From Erysipelotrichaceae bacterium (GTDB taxonomy: Bacteria; Bacillota_I; Bacilli_A; Erysipelotrichales; Erysipelotrichaceae): 35,955 nt of DNA. A program made the position numbers and the translations under genes. Location: NCBI GenBank assembly GCA_017432545.1, contig JAFRJA010000013.1, forward strand, positions 1-35,955, in the 5' to 3' direction. The notes under the pieces were generated by a model. That model was not told where the DNA came from. It ran no database searches and was given only the letters and a program-made list of their open reading frames with translations. Positions 29,250-35,955 of this stretch are shown here, one piece after another; positions within the stretch are counted from its first letter, which is position 1, and every line of letters starts with the position of its first letter.

Positions 29250-29329
29250 TTGAAAAAGTGTCATAAATGGGGAAATAAGAATTGAAAAAGTGTATATAAA
29301 TTAATAAAAATAATTGAAAAAGTGTCATA
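29250..29329 (+). repeat. Three direct repeats, TTGAAAAAGTGTCATA, 32-bp period
   Basis: TTGAAAAAGTGTCATA occurs at 29250-29265 and 29314-29329, with TTGAAAAAGTGTATAT at 29282. The starts are exactly 32 bp apart, about three helical turns. The last copy supplies the -35 (TTGAAA) of the predicted promoter at 29314-29342. Evenly spaced copies suggest a protein-binding site array that controls the ATPase gene. Confidence 0.85.
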
Positions 29330-29342
29330 TCTATTCTATACT
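29314..29342 (+). promoter_or_regulatory. Predicted promoter of the DUF4143 ATPase gene
   Basis: TTGAAA (29314-29319), 17 bp, TATACT (29337-29342). The -35 lies inside the third repeat copy, so the repeat-binding factor would compete with or recruit RNA polymerase. Confidence 0.7.
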
Positions 29343-29376
29343 GATTTTATTCCCGACAGAAGAGGAGGAAAATGCT

Positions 29377-30714
29377 GTGTTAAAGCGCAAAGCGGAAGAA
29401 AGAATCAGAGATTGGATAGAAGGATCAAAGAAAGCCTTGCTTGTAAGCGGAGCCAGACAGGTGGGGAAGACATATTCCATCAGGAAATGTCTGACAGAAG
29501 TTGGTTGCAACTATCTGGAAATAAACCTGATCGAACAGCCGGAACTGATTCCTGTATTTGAACGATCCATGTCAGTTGATGACCTGAGAGTCAATCTGTC
29601 TGCAGCGACAGGTTATTCGTTTGCTAAGGGAGAAAGCATACTTTTTATTGACGAGATCCAGGAAGTCAAAGATATTGTGACACGAATCAAATTCTGGGTG
29701 GACGAGGGCAGTTTTCGGTACATATTGAGCGGATCGCTTCTTGGCATTGAATTAAAAGGTCTGCGCTCGGCACCTGTGGGATATCTGGAAGAGATAAAAA
29801 TGTATCCGCTTGATTTTGAAGAGTTTTTAATAGCTTCCTCAGTCAATGAAGACGTCCTTGAGCACCTTCGTCGCTGTTTTGAAGAAAGCAAGCCTGTCGG
29901 AGAACTGATTCATGACAAAATCATGAAACATTTCCACAGATACCTCGTTGTCGGGGGGATGCCAGATGCCGTAAGGGAATATGTGGAATCCGGTGACATC
30001 TCCAAAGTTACGATCATACAACAGAATATCAGGGAATTATACAAGCTTGATTTCACAAAATATGAAGCAGAAGACAAGAAACTCATGATCATTTCGGTCT
30101 ATGAGACAATGCCGTCCCAGCTGCTCAAACAGAACCGCAGGTTCAATTATGCCGATATAAAAAAAGGTTTGCGCTTTGAAAAACTGGAAAGCAGTTTTTT
30201 GTGGCTGACTTCGGCAGGAGTTGTGATCCCAACCTATAATGCAACCGAACCAAGGGCATCCTTAAGTCAGAATCAGAAAAGCAGCCTGCTTAAGCTCTAC
30301 TCATCGGATGTCGGTCTTCTGACAGCGAGTTACGGAAATGCCCTCAGGACAAAAATACTTGTGGCTGATGACAAAGTAAATCTTGGAGGGATCTACGAAA
30401 ACGCTGTTGCACAGGAGTTGAATACTCATGGCTTCCAATCCTGGTTTTACAACAGCCATAAGAACGGAGAACTCGACTTCGTTATCGAGGAGGATAACGA
30501 AGTTGTCCCTATCGAAGTAAAGAGCGGGAAAGACTACTATGTTCATTCTGCAATTCCAAAGGCGATAAACAATCCGGAATATGAAATAAACAAAGCTTAT
30601 GTCTTTACAAATTATGATGTCGAAACAGATGGAAAGATAGTGTATCTGCCGGTTTACATGGCCATGTTCATCAATGATGATACGATTCTTCCTGTTCTTG
30701 ATCCAATTATCTGA
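29377..30714 (+). CDS. AAA ATPase with DUF4143 / PD-(D/E)xK-like C-terminus
   Basis: A 445-aa protein of the AAA/DUF4143 group. Walker A is LVSGARQVGKTYSIR (about 22-36), Walker B/sensor is SILFIDEIQEVKD followed by the family's YILSGSLLGIEL and EIKMYPLDFEEFL. The middle has YLVVGGMPDAVREYVE, and the C-terminus has KNGELDFVIEEDNEVVPIEVKSG, a D-x-n-E-V-K arrangement like PD-(D/E)xK nucleases. The frame is open from 29314 (TTG), but that lies inside a repeat. The GTG at 29377, 9 bp after GAGGAGG, gives the normal N-terminus (LKRKAEERIRDWIEG). Such ATPases are widespread, poorly understood, and often found in accessory DNA. The function is unknown; a defence or addiction role is a guess. Confidence 0.88.
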   Translation: MLKRKAEERIRDWIEGSKKALLVSGARQVGKTYSIRKCLTEVGCNYLEINLIEQPELIPVFERSMSVDDLRVNLSAATGYSFAKGESILFIDEIQEVKDIVTRIKFWVDEGSFRYILSGSLLGIELKGLRSAPVGYLEEIKMYPLDFEEFLIASSVNEDVLEHLRRCFEESKPVGELIHDKIMKHFHRYLVVGGMPDAVREYVESGDISKVTIIQQNIRELYKLDFTKYEAEDKKLMIISVYETMPSQLLKQNRRFNYADIKKGLRFEKLESSFLWLTSAGVVIPTYNATEPRASLSQNQKSSLLKLYSSDVGLLTASYGNALRTKILVADDKVNLGGIYENAVAQELNTHGFQSWFYNSHKNGELDFVIEEDNEVVPIEVKSGKDYYVHSAIPKAINNPEYEINKAYVFTNYDVETDGKIVYLPVYMAMFINDDTILPVLDPII

Positions 30715-30735
30715 AGGAGACCACAAACAAAAGGG

Positions 30736-30859
30736 AACTATGATTATTATCTGGTCACTGACATGAAATTGCTGATTATAAACCCTGGTTCGACCTCGAC
30801 AAAAATAAGTGTTTATGAAAATAAAGATCTGCTATGTGAAGACAGCGTTTTTCATGATG
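30736..30859 (+). repeat. Repeat copy B (5' end of the butyrate kinase pseudogene)
   Basis: Homologous to 29050-29175: shared upstream AACTATGAT-TTATTATC and the first about 30 codons, MKLLIINPGSTSTKISVYEN then KDL, up to TTCATGATG. The two copies differ at scattered positions, so the duplication is not recent. Confidence 0.7.
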
Positions 30860-31334
30860 CACCGGTATTGCTCAAATATATGTCAATAATCAGATACCTT
30901 TCAGAAAGGAAGTTATCCTGAACTTTTTGGCTGAAAACGATATCGATATAAAAGATCTTGATGTTTTTGTAGGAAGGGGTGGCAGTGCCGTTCCCGTCAG
31001 ATCCGGGGTAATGGAAATAAACGAACTATTATATGGCGATACGATAAGTGCCAAAGGCGGCAGTGAACATCCTGCCAAACTGGGCGTTATGCTGGCATAT
31101 GAATTCGCCTTGGAAAACAATAAAAAAGCCTATACTCTTGATCCTACCAATGTCGATGAACTTTGTGATGAAGCCAGACTGACGGGTATTAAAGGTTTAT
31201 ACAGGAATGCCCAGGCTCATGTCTTGAATCAGAAGGCCGTTGCCCGAAAACACTGTCTTTTGCATGACCTTGATTATGATGACTGCGATCTGATCGTCTG
31301 TCATATTGACGGAGGCATAACAGGAATCCTTTAA
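30763..31334 (+). pseudogene. Butyrate kinase, frameshifted and 3'-truncated
   Basis: The frame opens with MKLLIINPGSTSTKISVYEN and SVFHDAPVLLKY, then shifts near 30882. In the next frame it continues as NNQIPFRKEVILNFLAENDI, VFVGRGGSAVPVRSGVMEIN, SEHPAKLGVMLAYEFALENN, VDELCDEARLTGIKGLYRNA, HVLNQKAVARKHCLLHDLDY and ends at CHIDGGITGIL. These are consecutive conserved blocks of butyrate kinase (acetate/butyrate kinase fold), which makes butyrate and ATP from butyryl-phosphate. About half the protein is missing after GGG(I)-like IDGGI, so it is inactive. No phosphotransbutyrylase gene is beside it. The GTG-started ATPase at 29377 lies between this gene and a partial copy of its own 5' end. Confidence 0.85.
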
Positions 31335-31407
31335 CAGCTGAATATGAACTCATCAGTGATGAAAAAGGTTTTCTGGTCAGCAGAAAGAAGGATAACGAAG
31401 GATAACG

Positions 31408-31566
31408 ATGAAGCTGGGTGTGAAGGAATATGAACAAAAGAGGATATTGAATAAAACAGGAGGAATGCCTGTGACTTTTGATGATGATTCTCCGGAATTA
31501 AGTGAAAAACAGCCGATGGAGTTCAGAAGGATATTTGATGGTAATAGATCAGAAAAAGTGTATTAG
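31408..31566 (+). CDS. Small ORF with antitoxin-like segment (52 aa), possible remnant
   Basis: ATG 31408 (AAGGA 6 bp upstream) reads MKLGVKEYEQKRILNKTGG and MPVTFDDDSPELSEKQPMEF, RRIFDGNRSEKVY. The DDDSPELS-EKQ-EF segment resembles the short stretch before the DNA-binding part of BrnA/CopG-like antitoxins, but no RHH or HTH part remains and no toxin gene is seen. The last codons overlap GAAAAAGTGTATTA (31552-31565), a copy of the 32-bp-period repeat upstream of the other ATPase gene. It may be a shortened antitoxin or chance; low confidence. Confidence 0.3.
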   Translation: MKLGVKEYEQKRILNKTGGMPVTFDDDSPELSEKQPMEFRRIFDGNRSEKVY

Positions 31567-31674
31567 CGCCAGAATAAGCGATAGATAACGGCGCTAAGTG
31601 TCTAAAAAAATGACTTAGCGCCAGAATTAACGATTGATTACGGCGCTAATGTGAAATATAATATAGTTAGCGCC
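31563..31674 (+). repeat. Iterated TTAGCGCC repeats, 52-bp period
   Basis: Two complete units, TTAGCGCC-N19-GGCGCTAA (31563-31597 and 31615-31649), and a third half unit TTAGCGCC (31667-31674) start exactly 52 bp apart. Each full unit is an inverted repeat whose inner 19 bp are also similar (AGAATnAnCGATnGATnAC). The promoter of the next gene is embedded: -35 in the second unit's spacer, +1 near the third half-site. Confidence 0.88.
31634..31662 (+). promoter_or_regulatory. Predicted promoter of the second ATPase gene
   Basis: TTGATT (31634-31639), 17 bp, TATAAT (31657-31662). The right arm of repeat unit 2 lies between -35 and -10. The third half-repeat covers the predicted +1 (about 31668). 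Confidence 0.75.
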
Positions 31675-31701
31675 GTAATTATGTGTTTTGGAGGAGCAAA
31701 A

Positions 31702-33120
31702 ATGTTGATAGGTCGGGAGAAAGAGCAAAAAGTATTGGAAGAAGCATACCTTGCAGAAGAATCCAAATTTGTTGTTGTTTATGGCAGACGCAGAGTAGGA
31801 AAAACTTATTTGATCCGTGAAAGCCTAGAGAAAAGATTTGTATTTCAGCATGCAGGATATTATGGAGGGAAACTTTCGGATGAGCTATTTGAATTCTGTG
31901 CTTCCCTTAGGGAATATGGTTTGCATGACTTTTCAAGGCCAAAAAACTGGTTGGAGGCATTTGAACTGTTAAAAGAGCTGATCCGCAATTCATCAAAAAA
32001 AAGGAAAGTTATTTTTCTGGATGAGTTATCATGGATGGACACCAAAGGGAGTGATTTTATCATGGCTCTTGAAGGTTTCTGGAACAACTGGGCTTCTGCC
32101 AGAAAAGACGTTTTTCTGATCGTTTGCGGTTCCGCAACTTCCTGGATGCTGAACAAAATCATTCATAATAAAGGCGGGTTGTACAACCGATTGTCTTACC
32201 GGATACACCTTCAGCCATTTACACTCAAAGAATGTGAAAGATATCTTATCTCCAGAAACATTATTTTAAATCGCCATCAGATCCTGGAGTGCTACATGAT
32301 AATGGGTGGCATTCCATACTATTGGAGCTTTCTTGAAAAAGGACTGAGTTTGTCTCAAAATATCGACCGTATCTTTTTTGCCAAAGATGCGCCATTAGAG
32401 CAGGAATTCGACTATTTGCATGCCGCATTATTTGCAAAACCTGATCTTTATATCAAAATCGTGTCCACTTTAGGAAGAAAGAAAGCAGGCATGACCAGAG
32501 AAGAACTTTTAAAAGAAACGAATTGTGCGGATTCAGGCAATTTTTCTAAACGCCTGGAGGAACTGGAAAGCTGTAGTATCATTCGAAAATATAGTCAATT
32601 TGGAACAAAAGAAAGAAATGCAATATATCAGCTGATCGACAATTTTTCTCTTTTCTATTACAAGTTCCTGAAAGAAAAGCCAACTGATGAACACTTCTGG
32701 AGTAATCAGGTAAATACACCGGTCGTAAATACATGGTGTGGTTTGGCTTTTGAACGTGTCTGTTTGGAACACGTTTCTCAAATAAAACAGGCTTTAGGGA
32801 TTTCCGGGGTATTAAGTGAGACTTATTCCTGGTTTTGCAAAGAGGATCAGGCAAACGGCATTCAAGGCTCACAAATCGATTTATTGATCGTGAGAAAAGA
32901 TCAGGTAATAAACTTGTGCGAGATGAAATTTTCCTCAAAAAAATATGCGGTTACAGAAAAGATCGATAATGAAATCAGTAAAAAAATATCAGATTTCAAA
33001 GCGCTCGCCAATTCTCGCTACGCTATTCATGTGACATTTATTTCGCCTTATGGAGTAACTGATAATTCATATACAGGAAATATTCAAAATATCATAACTG
33101 CTGATGACTTATTTTCCTGA
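31702..33120 (+). CDS. AAA ATPase (archaeal ATPase family), PD-(D/E)xK-like C-terminus
   Basis: A 472-aa protein of the archaeal-type ATPase family. MLIGREKEQKVLEEAYLAEE opens the domain. Walker A is FVVVYGRRRVGKTYLIR (about 24-38), Walker B is RKVIFLDELSWMD, the sensor is FLIVCGSATSWMLNKII, and the family block YMIMGGIPYYWSFLEKGLS is present. A winged-helix part follows (TREELLKETNCADSGNFSKR). The C-terminus has GSQIDLLIVRKDQVINLCEMKFS, a D-x-n-E-x-K nuclease-like motif (DUF234-like). The open frame starts at 31651, but ATG 31702 with GGAGGAG is the real start. It shares the general architecture of the ATPase at 29377 but not its sequence. The role is unknown. Confidence 0.9.
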   Translation: MLIGREKEQKVLEEAYLAEESKFVVVYGRRRVGKTYLIRESLEKRFVFQHAGYYGGKLSDELFEFCASLREYGLHDFSRPKNWLEAFELLKELIRNSSKKRKVIFLDELSWMDTKGSDFIMALEGFWNNWASARKDVFLIVCGSATSWMLNKIIHNKGGLYNRLSYRIHLQPFTLKECERYLISRNIILNRHQILECYMIMGGIPYYWSFLEKGLSLSQNIDRIFFAKDAPLEQEFDYLHAALFAKPDLYIKIVSTLGRKKAGMTREELLKETNCADSGNFSKRLEELESCSIIRKYSQFGTKERNAIYQLIDNFSLFYYKFLKEKPTDEHFWSNQVNTPVVNTWCGLAFERVCLEHVSQIKQALGISGVLSETYSWFCKEDQANGIQGSQIDLLIVRKDQVINLCEMKFSSKKYAVTEKIDNEISKKISDFKALANSRYAIHVTFISPYGVTDNSYTGNIQNIITADDLFS

Positions 33121-33239: not shown

Positions 33240-34022
33240 GTGGAACATGAACATTTTGATCAGCTATTCATAAGATCCATTGCTCTTGATGACAGGCCGT
33301 TTAATAGAGATGAATACCTTAAAGAAATACCTGCCATAAAACAATTGGAAAAACAGGAACTTGTTTTTGATAAGAGAGTATCTTTTCTGATTGGGGAAAA
33401 TGGTACGGGGAAATCGACACTATTAGAAGCGATAGCTGTCGCCAGTCATTTCAATCCGGAAGGTGGTACGAAGAACTTTTATTTCTCCACCAGCAATTCC
33501 CATTCCGAGCTGCATGAACACCTTCTTTTAAGCAAGAGTGCTCATGAAAGGGATGGCTTCTTTTTAAGAGCGGAAAGCTTTTATAACGTAGCTTCCTATA
33601 TCGATGATCTGGATAAAGCGGGAGGTTTTGGTCCTCCCATCATTGACAGCTATGGCGGTGTTTCTCTTCATCTGCAGTCGCATGGGGAGAGTTTTCTGGC
33701 TCTGGTGAAAAACAGATTTGGTGGCAATGGCTTATATCTTTTGGATGAACCTGAGGCGGCTTTGTCACCAAGCAGGTTGATGTCGCTGCTGATAATGATC
33801 AACGATATCGCCAATGCCAATTCACAGTTTATTATTGCGACCCATTCACCGATACTGATGTCTTATCCTGATGCGGATATCTTTGAGCTTGATGATATTG
33901 GTATCAGAAAAGTCGAATACAAGGATACCGATCACTATAAGATAACCAAGGATTTCATTGAAAGACCGGATTATATGTATAGGCTGCTGTTTGAAAGCGA
34001 TAAAGAAAACGATGATAGGTAA
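33240..34022 (+). CDS. AAA family ATPase (ABC/SMC-type, AAA_21/AAA_23)
   Basis: A 260-aa ATPase. Walker A is FLIGENGTGKSTLLEAIAVA (about 48-67). The ABC signature-like SLHLQSHGESFLALVKNRF has the Q-S-H-G-E-S-F core, Walker B is GLYLLDEPEAALSPSRLM, and the switch His is FIIATHSPILMSYPDADIF. These make it a compact single-domain ATPase like those in OLD/AAA_21 groups, without an attached nuclease. It starts at GTG 33240, directly after TATAAT (33228-33233), so +1 would coincide with the start. No ribosome site is seen. It may be a defence or conserved housekeeping ATPase. Confidence 0.88.
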   Translation: MEHEHFDQLFIRSIALDDRPFNRDEYLKEIPAIKQLEKQELVFDKRVSFLIGENGTGKSTLLEAIAVASHFNPEGGTKNFYFSTSNSHSELHEHLLLSKSAHERDGFFLRAESFYNVASYIDDLDKAGGFGPPIIDSYGGVSLHLQSHGESFLALVKNRFGGNGLYLLDEPEAALSPSRLMSLLIMINDIANANSQFIIATHSPILMSYPDADIFELDDIGIRKVEYKDTDHYKITKDFIERPDYMYRLLFESDKENDDR

Positions 34023-34070
34023 ACCCGGAGTTTGCTTAAAAATGCGATAGTTGAGGTGCAGAAATAGGTT

Positions 34071-34129
34071 ATCTTCATAAATTTGACAAAACTATATTCA
34101 AAAATCTTCATAAAATTGACAAAGTCATA
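34071..34129 (+). repeat. Direct repeats, ATCTTCATAAA-(N)-TTGACAAA, 33-bp period
   Basis: ATCTTCATAAATTTGACAAA (34071) and ATCTTCATAAAATTGACAAA (34104) start 33 bp apart. Each carries TTGACA, a perfect -35 hexamer (34083-34088 and 34116-34121). No convincing -10 follows at 16-18 bp. They lie upstream of the AbiEi-like gene, the same layout as at 29250 and 31563. Confidence 0.75.
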
Positions 34130-34253
34130 GTGCAATCATCACGAATGATGATGTTTGTGTTTAATAGAGTTATTATAATTCCCTTTACAGAAACATGAAA
34201 TAATAGCTGAAATCTCTATGAAATCCAATGGAATTGGATTTGAAGGAGCAAAT

Positions 34254-34853
34254 ATGATAGTTACAACATCGATGCTGAAGCAACAATACGCGAATTATTC
34301 CAATCCTTTGGATAAGATTCGTCGTGATGCGAATCAGGGGATCATCTTCAGATTGAACAGGGGCTTGTATGAAACGGATCGGAGCACGGATCCTTATCTG
34401 CTGGCTGCTCCAATACTATCACCGTCATATCTGAGTTTCGAACTTGCGCTTTCTTATTACGGTCTGATACCGGAGAGAGTCTACGGGATCACATCGGCAT
34501 CTTTGCTTCAGAGAAAAAACAGGACGATCACAAATGTTTTCGGAAGATACGAATACAGCGATATTCCTCCGGCTGCTTTTTCTGAAGGGTTATGTTATAT
34601 CGGAGAAGGAGAGTATATTGTTAAGATCGCTTCAAAAGAGAAAGCAATCTGTGATTCTTTATATAAATGGCCGGTCGTTAACAGTTTAAGGGATTTACGG
34701 GAGCTGCTATTCGATGATAAAAGAATTGATGAAGAGGAATTTGCTTCCTGCGACTTTGAGTTGATGAAACGGCTGGCTAAGCTGTATCATCGCAAAAATC
34801 TGAAACTGCTGATAAAGCTGATCGAAAAAGATTACAGTTCTAGGGAGAGTTAG
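34254..34853 (+). CDS. AbiEi-like type IV toxin-antitoxin antitoxin/regulator, without partner
   Basis: A 199-aa protein that matches AbiEi antitoxins. The N-terminal wHTH (MIVTTSMLKQQYANYSNPLD, IIFRLNRGLYETD) is followed by the typical AAPILSPSYLSFELALSYYG, VYGITSASLLQRKN and RYEYSDIPPAAFSEG, then KIASKEKAICDSLYKW. Such proteins autorepress their operon and neutralise the AbiEii nucleotidyltransferase. No AbiEii gene follows, so it is an orphan or has another partner. The open frame starts at 34218; the ATG at 34254 has GGAGCAA in place. The direct repeats at 34071 could be its own operators, since AbiEi binds repeats. Confidence 0.75.
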   Translation: MIVTTSMLKQQYANYSNPLDKIRRDANQGIIFRLNRGLYETDRSTDPYLLAAPILSPSYLSFELALSYYGLIPERVYGITSASLLQRKNRTITNVFGRYEYSDIPPAAFSEGLCYIGEGEYIVKIASKEKAICDSLYKWPVVNSLRDLRELLFDDKRIDEEEFASCDFELMKRLAKLYHRKNLKLLIKLIEKDYSSRES

Positions 34854-34940
34854 AACATTGTTACAAGATCTTTATACTACTGGTATACTTATCAAACCGG
34901 TAAAGTTCTGTTATATTAAATGAGAAAAGGAGAAAGACTT

Positions 34941-35072
34941 TTGATTAATGTTGCATACTTATTCTCAGATGTGAAAATGAGAGAACATGACGTTCAGATA
35001 AATCTTGTGTCGAATTGTGAGGGCATGATTTTTGTTGCGTCTGTTTCAGTATGCGGTGGTTTTGTGATCTAG
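34941..35072 (+). CDS. Tiny ORF with TTG start (43 aa), doubtful
   Basis: TTG at 34941, 8 bp after AAGGAG, reads MINVAYLFSDVKMREHDVQI, NLVSNCEGMIFVASVSVCGG and ends FVI. Nothing is recognised; a C-terminal hydrophobic stretch is present. Apart from this and the hairpin at 35104 I see nothing in the gap 34854-35164. Confidence 0.2.
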   Translation: MINVAYLFSDVKMREHDVQINLVSNCEGMIFVASVSVCGGFVI

Positions 35073-35103: not shown

Positions 35104-35143
35104 GACCGCTTGCTGAGCAGATGAAGAGTAAGCGGTTTTTGTT
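35104..35143 (+). terminator. Intrinsic terminator upstream of the XRE gene
   Basis: ACCGCTT (35105-35111) pairs with AAGCGGT (35130-35136), followed by TTTTGTTT. The loop is 18 nt. It probably ends transcription from the left. Confidence 0.6.
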
Positions 35144-35164: not shown

Positions 35165-35389
35165 ATGTTCGTGAAGATCGATGTATATGGGACAGCAAAC
35201 AAGATAAATACATTAAGAAAAGAAAAGGGCCTGTCTGTTAGAGATGTACAGGAGGCTCTGGGTTTCAATACTCCGCAGGCTGTTTATAAATGGCTTAGGG
35301 GTGATTCTATTCCTTCGGTGGACAATCTGGTCGTATTGTCGGATCTGCTGGATGCGACGATCGACGAGATCATCGTGAGGGAAAAATAG
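35165..35389 (+). CDS. XRE-type HTH regulator (74 aa)
   Basis: A small cytoplasmic DNA-binding protein consisting of one XRE domain. NKINTLRKEKGLSVRDVQEA and LGFNTPQAVYKWLRGDSIPS form the HTH, followed by VDNLVVLSDLLDATIDEIIV, the usual end of the domain. ATG 35165 is set by AAGGAAG 8 bp upstream (a GTG three codons earlier is weaker). As a single domain with no partner it is probably an autoregulated repressor; the element or operon it controls is not visible. It lies just before the tRNA array. Confidence 0.85.
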   Translation: MFVKIDVYGTANKINTLRKEKGLSVRDVQEALGFNTPQAVYKWLRGDSIPSVDNLVVLSDLLDATIDEIIVREK

Positions 35390-35435: not shown

Positions 35436-35510
35436 ACCAGATGGAAGGTCGGTATCTGGTGCAGCTTCATAAGCTGTTTCAACAGGGTTCGACTCCCTGA
35501 TCTGGAACCA
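35436..35510 (+). tRNA. tRNA with CAU anticodon (Met or lysidine-type Ile), non-canonical D arm
   Basis: Anticodon arm GCAGC-TTCATAA-GCTGT, T arm CAGGG-TTCGACT-CCCTG and encoded CCA are clear. The acceptor pairs ACCAGAT with ATCTGGA, with an A-A mismatch at the first pair. The D arm is weak: three pairs (AGG/TCT) around a 6-nt loop TCGGTA, and the usual T8 is G. CAU could be Met, or Ile if the C is modified; the anticodon stem lacks the three G-C pairs of initiators. Confidence 0.7.
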
Positions 35511-35511
35511 T

Positions 35512-35585
35512 GGTTCTCTAGCCAAGAGGAAAGGCAAGGGTCTGCAACACCCTGATCGTGAGTTCGATTCTCACGGGAACCTCCA
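35512..35585 (+). tRNA. tRNA-Cys (GCA)
   Basis: A regular tRNA of 74 nt. Acceptor GGTTCTC/GGGAACC (one G-U pair), D arm GCC/GGC, anticodon arm AGGGT-CTGCAAC-ACCCT with GCA, T arm GTGAG-TTCGATT-CTCAC, discriminator T and encoded CCA. T at the discriminator is the normal identity element for Cys. One base separates it from each neighbouring tRNA gene. Confidence 0.9.
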
Positions 35586-35586
35586 T

Positions 35587-35660
35587 TGTCTTGTAGCTTA
35601 ATAGCAGAGCAGACGCCTTATAAGCGCCAGATCCCGGAGCATAACCGGGCAAGACGACCA
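35587..35660 (+). tRNA. tRNA-like gene with UAU anticodon (Ile), non-canonical D and T loops
   Basis: Acceptor TGTCTTG/CAAGACG (one T-G pair) with encoded ACCA. D arm GCT/AGC with loop TAATAGCAG, which lacks the GG pair. Anticodon arm GACGC-CTTATAA-GCGCC (one A-C mismatch), anticodon TAT. T stem CCCGG/CCGGG has the loop AGCATAA instead of TTCRANN. The usual D-loop/T-loop contacts are therefore absent. UAU is an uncommon bacterial Ile anticodon, since AUA is normally read by a lysidine-modified CAU tRNA. Confidence 0.65.
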
Positions 35661-35955
35661 ATTTTCTTATAAAGAATTTGACGCTACAGACGGTAAACTT
35701 TATTCTTATCAAGTTTATTTAATACTCATCGTGAATTGCAACAATATTTGAAATGCTTAGAGGTTCAAAAAAGAGTCGGATTTTCTGACATTTTTGAGCA
35801 AACCCGTTTTCTATAAACGCTATGTTCAAGAAACCAGTTGATGAACATTTTATGAAAACTCTTATCATTTCTTGAAATATGGATATCTATTTCAATTTGC
35901 TATATCGACAACACTAGATTCATATCCGGCTAATCGCTCAGAATATAAAGTTCAA
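35661..35955. other. Right-edge stretch without a recognised gene
   Basis: An AT-rich stretch with stop codons in all frames that I checked. The plus frame around 35768-35955 gives short readable pieces (ESDFLTFLSKPVFYKRYVQE, then TFYENSYHFLKYGYLF) broken by stops, perhaps a degenerate gene that goes on beyond the window. I could not identify it. Confidence 0.3.

Follow-up and report, generated by a model that had tools for sequence, protein, structure and literature searches.

Divergent tRNAs, a small XRE gene and a codon-matched leader: a probable attenuation-controlled tRNA operon in Erysipelotrichaceae and Clostridia

The tRNA trio and its locus

The window, by which we mean the whole stretch of DNA that was analysed (35,955 nt), is an entire contig (C47) of an Erysipelotrichaceae genome of 3.4 Mb in 219 contigs. 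Close to its end, a leader ORF, a hairpin, a small regulator gene and three tRNA genes follow each other on the same strand:

34941-35072, + strand: leader ORF of 43 aa with a TTG start, MINVAYLFSDVKMREHDVQINLVSNCEGMIFVASVSVCGGFVI; an in-frame ATG at 34920 is an alternative start
35038-35057, + strand: antiterminator segment CGTCTGTTTCAGTATGCGGT, inside the end of the leader ORF, predicted to pair with 35105-35123 (-27.2 kcal/mol)
35105-35140, + strand: terminator-like hairpin CCGCTTGCT..AGTAAGCGG, then TTTTT (-15.8 kcal/mol, z -4.6)
35165-35389, + strand: XRE/HTH_3 regulator gene of 74 aa (Pfam HTH_3, 1.2e-11), with the motif GFNTPQA...W.RG...P..DN
35436-35510, + strand: tRNA with a CAU anticodon, a displaced, weak D arm, an A.A pair at 1:72 and G8
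35512-35585, + strand: regular tRNA-Cys (GCA), found by ARAGORN and the Rfam tRNA model
35587-35660, + strand: tRNA-Ile (UAU) with an altered elbow (A18-G19, A54-G55-C56, U58)

The initial annotation had described the three tRNAs, and ARAGORN returned exactly these three at the same coordinates, with 1-nt spacers and encoded CCA. Their placement behind an XRE gene was also correct, the first tRNA starting 46 nt past the stop codon of the 74-aa HTH_3 gene. What had been missed was the regulatory leader 5' of the XRE gene, together with a second array in the same genome. With the Rfam tRNA model the Cys tRNA, described as regular, scored 57.1 bits and the UAU tRNA 43.2 bits; the CAU tRNA fell under the 29-bit cut-off. 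The reported oddities are all present, namely A1-A72, G8 and a weak D arm in the CAU tRNA, and in the UAU tRNA a D loop (AATAGCA) devoid of GG and the T loop AGCATAA. The statement that all stems of the UAU tRNA are formed applies to nearly all of them, but positions 28 and 42 of the anticodon stem are mismatched (A-C). The anticodon loops of the trio look ordinary.

Several other features of the window were recorded. Directly 5' of the leader, an AAA_21 ATPase gene is followed by an AbiEi-like gene (33240-34853; no Pfam match for the latter), and from its sequence this pair resembles a type IV toxin-antitoxin or abortive-infection pair. Two further ATPase genes (AAA_14 with DUF4143, and ATPase_2; 29314-33120) lie in the accessory region 5' of the tRNA operon, and an ISL3-family transposase is encoded at 1078-2436. 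The contig stops 295 nt 3' of the trio, which is why no repair gene is visible here. Its last positions, 35870-35955, are identical to the end of contig C54 of another genome, G030. That contig carries a lone Ile-UAU tRNA (L080, 8840-8913) which is 100% identical to window 35587-35660; the identity extends into the 3' flank, and no XRE gene lies nearby. The identical tRNA and contig ends suggest that the two contigs have a repeat or IS in common and that tRNA genes move singly.

Homologues of the CAU tRNA were found at five loci (L073, L074, L077, L079 and L082). The 1:72 position is weak in 6/6 members of this family, being A.A in the window and A.C or U-A in the others. In spite of this initiator-like pair, the GGG:CCC anticodon stem is absent from the family. 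The D arm hardly varies among the four same-genus homologues, or in 5/6 homologues overall, and hence offers no covariation test. This tRNA may be an initiator, an elongator Met or an Ile2 tRNA.

A possible reading of such unusual genes is that they are pseudo-tRNAs left behind by decay. The low score of the CAU tRNA and the lone UAU copy in G030 would fit this reading; the UAU tRNA and its relatives argue against it. Pairing is kept in 95.7% of the stem cells of 10 distinct Ile-UAU/GAU array homologues, and both-sided changes were observed in 16 of 21 stem pairs, compared with 8.8 in shuffles, so that this group has the conserved cloverleaf and compensatory changes of functional elongator tRNAs. 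The UAU elbow recurs, again with compensatory stem changes, in a genome of another genus (G057). Stem covariation thus largely refutes decay, which we regard as hardly credible for the trio; the argument from compensated stems in the initial annotation was sound, and the odd loops, whose conservation it had named as a sign of support, are conserved across genera. These patterns indicate that the Ile-UAU array tRNAs are under selection and not decaying.

XRE-linked tRNA modules in other genomes

A search with an XRE alignment found homologues of the regulator in many genomes. The 80 XRE loci in genomes with names belong to Erysipelotrichaceae, Solobacterium, isolates of Ruminococcus flavefaciens and R. 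albus, and other Clostridia. A tRNA on the same strand starts within 150 nt downstream of 58 of these 80 homologues, and on the opposite strand of none. The module starts with a short leader ORF and an antiterminator/terminator hairpin, followed by an XRE gene of about 75 aa and then by 1-19 divergent tRNAs in an array. A terminator-like hairpin precedes the XRE gene in 70/82 loci, mostly by 26-60 nt, and often shares the motif CCG..GCAG..CGG-U5. We considered a DNA operator in place of this hairpin and rejected it; the stem is retained but the loop ranges in length from about 4 to 23 nt, which favours an RNA hairpin. At some XRE homologues neither hairpin nor tRNA was found. The genome of the window holds a second module on contig C99 (L031), where the XRE gene is followed by 11 tRNAs by Rfam and 8 by ARAGORN. 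The module is widespread and apparently undescribed: in a full-text literature search, with subscription papers mostly outside its reach, leader attenuation of a tRNA array was nowhere reported.

Genes for RNA repair recur beside the arrays. An RNA ligase (PF09414) is encoded directly 3' of the XRE gene or of the array's final tRNA at 17 loci, the gap being usually about 30 nt, and R. flavefaciens ATCC 19208 has no second copy of this ligase. RlaP (2.5e-82) is encoded 3' of the C99 array, and other arrays lie near genes for RtcB, RlaP, DUF2828, macro-domain proteins or ADP-ribosylglycohydrolases. At three loci (L136, L167 and L174) the RNA ligase gene is directly 3' of the XRE gene and no tRNA was detected; the leader and terminator are of the same type. 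At three others (L116, L120 and L122) the array is followed by an opposite-strand gene with weak WYL similarity and a DUF2828/DUF7788 gene, and an RtcB gene comes next in L116 and L120.

The initial annotation had raised the possibility that the tRNAs are encoded by a mobile element, and this was mostly unsupported, since viral and plasmid collections rarely contain the module; the megaplasmid pRUMAL01 of R. albus 7 does carry it. A fuller version would see the module as an XRE-repressed tRNA array with which a mobile element or phage evades host tRNA nucleases, the resemblance to a leader being secondary. The XRE protein does resemble phage repressors, phage tRNAs have anticodon-loop changes (PMC10264068), and modules occur on pRUMAL01 (2 XRE genes, 14 tRNAs) and on one putative phage scaffold with 4 tRNAs. 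Yet an IMG/VR scan gave a single match, without tRNAs, most loci are on chromosomal contigs, those of isolates included, and no recurrent integrase or structural genes lie nearby. We therefore hold this reading to be rather improbable. By reading, the genes of the window are metabolic, and no phage structural genes were noted among them. As to a phage origin of the trio itself, the phage matches were nearly all tRNA-Cys genes of Enterococcus phages, and this origin was rejected. A plasmid origin was likewise rejected, the XRE matches in Ligilactobacillus plasmids having no tRNAs in the one inspected (L231). This plasmid is pMP118 of Ligilactobacillus salivarius, and the XRE homologue occurs on megaplasmids of many strains of that species.

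The array tRNAs differ from housekeeping tRNAs in the anticodon loop. C33 was seen in 38/333 array tRNAs as against 2/149 housekeeping tRNAs (Fisher 5e-5), Phe tRNAs have G37 in 25/26 array copies and A37 in 5/5 host copies, and array Asp tRNAs often have U37. Gln, Cys and Glu tRNAs are enriched in the arrays, and Ala, Val, Thr, Gly, Arg and Met tRNAs depleted. In most array Gln tRNAs (for example L162, 4241-4317) the acceptor is TTC..GAA with U1-A72 and the D arm is UCGUCUAA; host Gln tRNAs differ in this, which suggests common descent of the array copies. For phage tRNAs with altered anticodon loops, evasion of anticodon nucleases has been proposed (PMC10264068), and on the strength of the substitutions above it is plausible that the array tRNAs are nuclease resistant.

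The elbow of the window UAU tRNA is also found in array tRNAs of L138 and L146 and in the Asp tRNAs of L031, L118 and L122. Array tRNAs with G55 lack G18G19 in 8/9 cases in one parse and 9/9 in another, and nearly all with U55 retain the GG. The 54:58 pair is U-A in most array tRNAs and A-U in 9, compared with U-A in 147/147 parsed housekeeping tRNAs of five comparison genomes. These two tertiary contacts vary independently, as T loops of the types AGCRUWA (both changed), UGCAAAU (55 only) and AUCRUA (54/58 only) were all observed. Among the exceptions to these elbow patterns are Gln tRNAs of L124 and L153. The arrays are thus a source of natural tRNAs with a re-paired elbow (18:55, 54:58), useful for studies of tRNA structure; in the elbow of the UAU tRNA, A18 is predicted to contact G55.

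Leader codons and alternative RNA pairing

The leader ORFs usually have 35-50 codons and lie just 5' of the hairpin. For each locus we took the longest ORF ending 12-62 nt 5' of the hairpin, a rule whose picks at L140, L146 and L165 look wrong-frame. The window leader has an SD-like AAAGGAG 5' of its TTG, and contains AUA, UGU/UGC and AUG, the codons of its own Ile-UAU, Cys and CAU tRNAs. This match is weak on its own and not significant, all three codon types being present in 14/34 leaders, and the case rests on a family-wide test.

In this test, the amino acids of 34 dereplicated leaders were correlated with the tRNAs of their own arrays (r=0.371, z=8.2, 0/20000 permutations), with amino-acid and locus means removed, and with permutations that only partly remove relatedness. 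The control frames +1, +2 and antisense gave r of -0.05, 0.05 and 0.05. The correlation was significant within Erysipelotrichaceae (0.335) and within Clostridia (0.360) separately, rose to 0.436 on dereplication at 45% (20 loci), and was 0.404 (P=0.023) in five held-out loci, whose controls were below 0. At the codon level the match was 0.339 for own arrays against 0.236 for permuted ones. The codons served by the array tRNAs may also be predicted from the leaders.

Individual loci illustrate the match. The leader of L127 (Trp, Phe, Gln) is RQYVFFAQQFQFRFFRQWQEK, that of L128 (Tyr, Glu, His, Ser) is YLYSEHYEKGFYHESEE, that of L123 (Lys, Gly, Gln, Asn, Ile, Thr, Met, Arg, Pro) is MSRKQGRGFTPIMNTR and that of L149 (Glu, Gly, Lys, Leu, Tyr) is KGLEYGKELYELQGKLYG; the array of L184 has Asp only, and its leader contains five Asp. 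R. flavefaciens ATCC 19208 has two operons, one with the array {Gln,Cys,Phe} and a Q/F/S-rich leader, and the other with the array {Tyr,His,Glu,Ser} and the leader MRQFTMIYLYSEHYEESFYHESEEALF. Since arrays and leaders differ correspondingly within one genome, an artefact of genome composition is disfavoured.

Among single codons, UGG is present in 8/9 leaders of loci with a Trp tRNA and in 4/25 of those without (p=0.0002), and Asp and Pro codons go with Asp and Pro tRNAs. For Cys there was almost no enrichment in the leaders of loci with a Cys tRNA. AUA occurs in the leaders of 9/10 loci with an Ile-UAU tRNA and of 6/24 without (p=0.0015). This bears indirectly on the earlier suggestion that the UAU tRNA decodes AUA without lysidine: the part concerning AUA gains some support, but absence of tilS had to be rejected, as the genome carries this gene, and the UAU tRNA is therefore not required as a substitute for lysidine decoding. 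Third-position bias of the leaders, tested as conserved peptides, was weak (78/78/93), as is expected if codon content and not peptide sequence is selected. From the match between leaders and arrays we infer that the leader is translated. Promoter-like sites 5' of the leader were no commoner than chance, and at 12 loci examined with Rfam no leader family was found, only tRNAs.

The end of the leader is also predicted to engage in alternative pairing. For the full window segment the predicted MFE fold is the antiterminator pairing (-34.6 kcal/mol, z -3.2), and when the leader end is removed the terminator forms. Over 34 loci the late leader pairs with its own terminator 5' arm at a mean of -20.5 kcal/mol, against -15.7 kcal/mol for swapped leaders (0/10000). 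A short leader with codons for the regulated resource, a terminator-like hairpin before the first gene and a mutually exclusive antiterminator overlapping the leader, which are sequence hallmarks of trp-type attenuation, are thus found here.

A proposed attenuation mechanism and its relation to known systems

Judging from these sequence features, the trio is probably produced by an operon that is controlled by attenuation and provides spare tRNAs. In such an operon a ribosome would translate a leader ORF enriched in codons of the downstream tRNAs. With these tRNAs available, the ribosome would reach the leader end and cover the antiterminator, and the terminator would stop transcription 5' of the XRE gene. 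If a tRNA is short, the ribosome would stall early and the late leader would pair with the terminator 5' arm, allowing RNA polymerase to transcribe the XRE gene, the tRNA array and, at many loci, RNA ligase or other repair genes. The array tRNAs diverge from normal isoacceptors in their anticodon loops or elbows, probably because they have to function once nucleases have cut the ordinary ones.

Toxins, bacteriocins and phage defence often target tRNAs. We infer that read-through is governed by ribosome stalling, that the trigger in nature is tRNA cleavage and that the array tRNAs resist such cleavage. We give about an even chance to the wider proposal of a class of self-sensing tRNA-replacement operons, in which the leader would act as a multi-codon tRNA meter, and shortage, probably by nuclease attack, would release cleavage-resistant copies and repair enzymes that protect against tRNA-targeting toxins or defence nucleases.

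The main rival to a cleavage trigger is amino-acid starvation, with the same attenuator operon adjusting tRNA supply and not replacing cleaved tRNAs. Starvation is what trp/his-type leaders classically sense, and the mixed codons of the leaders are compatible with it. However, extra tRNA is no remedy for a missing amino acid, the downstream genes serve RNA repair and not biosynthesis, and the anticodon loops are altered; we consider starvation unlikely. Another reading would take the tRNAs out of translation altogether, for example as aminoacyl donors for cell-wall or peptide synthesis. It would explain the weakened elbows, since some non-proteogenic tRNAs have altered D/T loops, but it is very improbable: arrays reach 19 tRNAs of many specificities, a matching leader implies codon reading, and no enzymes of the aminoacyl-donor type recur nearby.

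If the replacement proposal is true, it would show how bacteria notice and repair the loss of specific tRNAs. Reporters could address the question directly, and the module is present in R. flavefaciens and R. albus isolates. Leader attenuation, a textbook device of amino-acid operons, seems to act on tRNA genes here, and the sensor codons correspond to the tRNAs that the array encodes. As in trp, his, leu and ilv attenuation, there is a leader ORF with regulatory codons, a terminator hairpin and an antiterminator overlapping the leader ORF. The differences are that tRNAs, an XRE gene and RNA repair would be controlled, that the codons are read by the operon's own tRNAs and that many amino acids would be sensed together.

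Phage tRNA clusters (PMC10264068) similarly contain divergent tRNAs whose anticodon loops are altered and which could stand in for host tRNAs once these are depleted; the modules described here are mostly in cellular genomes and have a conserved regulator and leader, and their resistance is putative. Mycobacterial tRNA array units are likewise dense clusters of variant tRNAs, with a proposed anti-defence role (PMC5966550, PMC12803027), but an XRE gene or leader is unmentioned in PMC12803027. The RtcR-RtcAB / Rsr operon also ties RNA repair genes to a tRNA-damage response; its activation is by the CARF-domain protein RtcR and not by attenuation, and the abstract of PMC7790460 describes no replacement-tRNA array. 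In Anabaena, the trn operon is an additional, silent tRNA array that translational stress induces, and rtcB belongs to the same regulon (PMC10272220). The trn repressor, TrcR, is an RHH protein whose gene lies elsewhere on the chromosome, whereas the XRE protein here is linked and of the HTH_3 type. As a stress-induced tRNA array with an rtcB link, the Anabaena trn operon is the closest functional precedent for the module.
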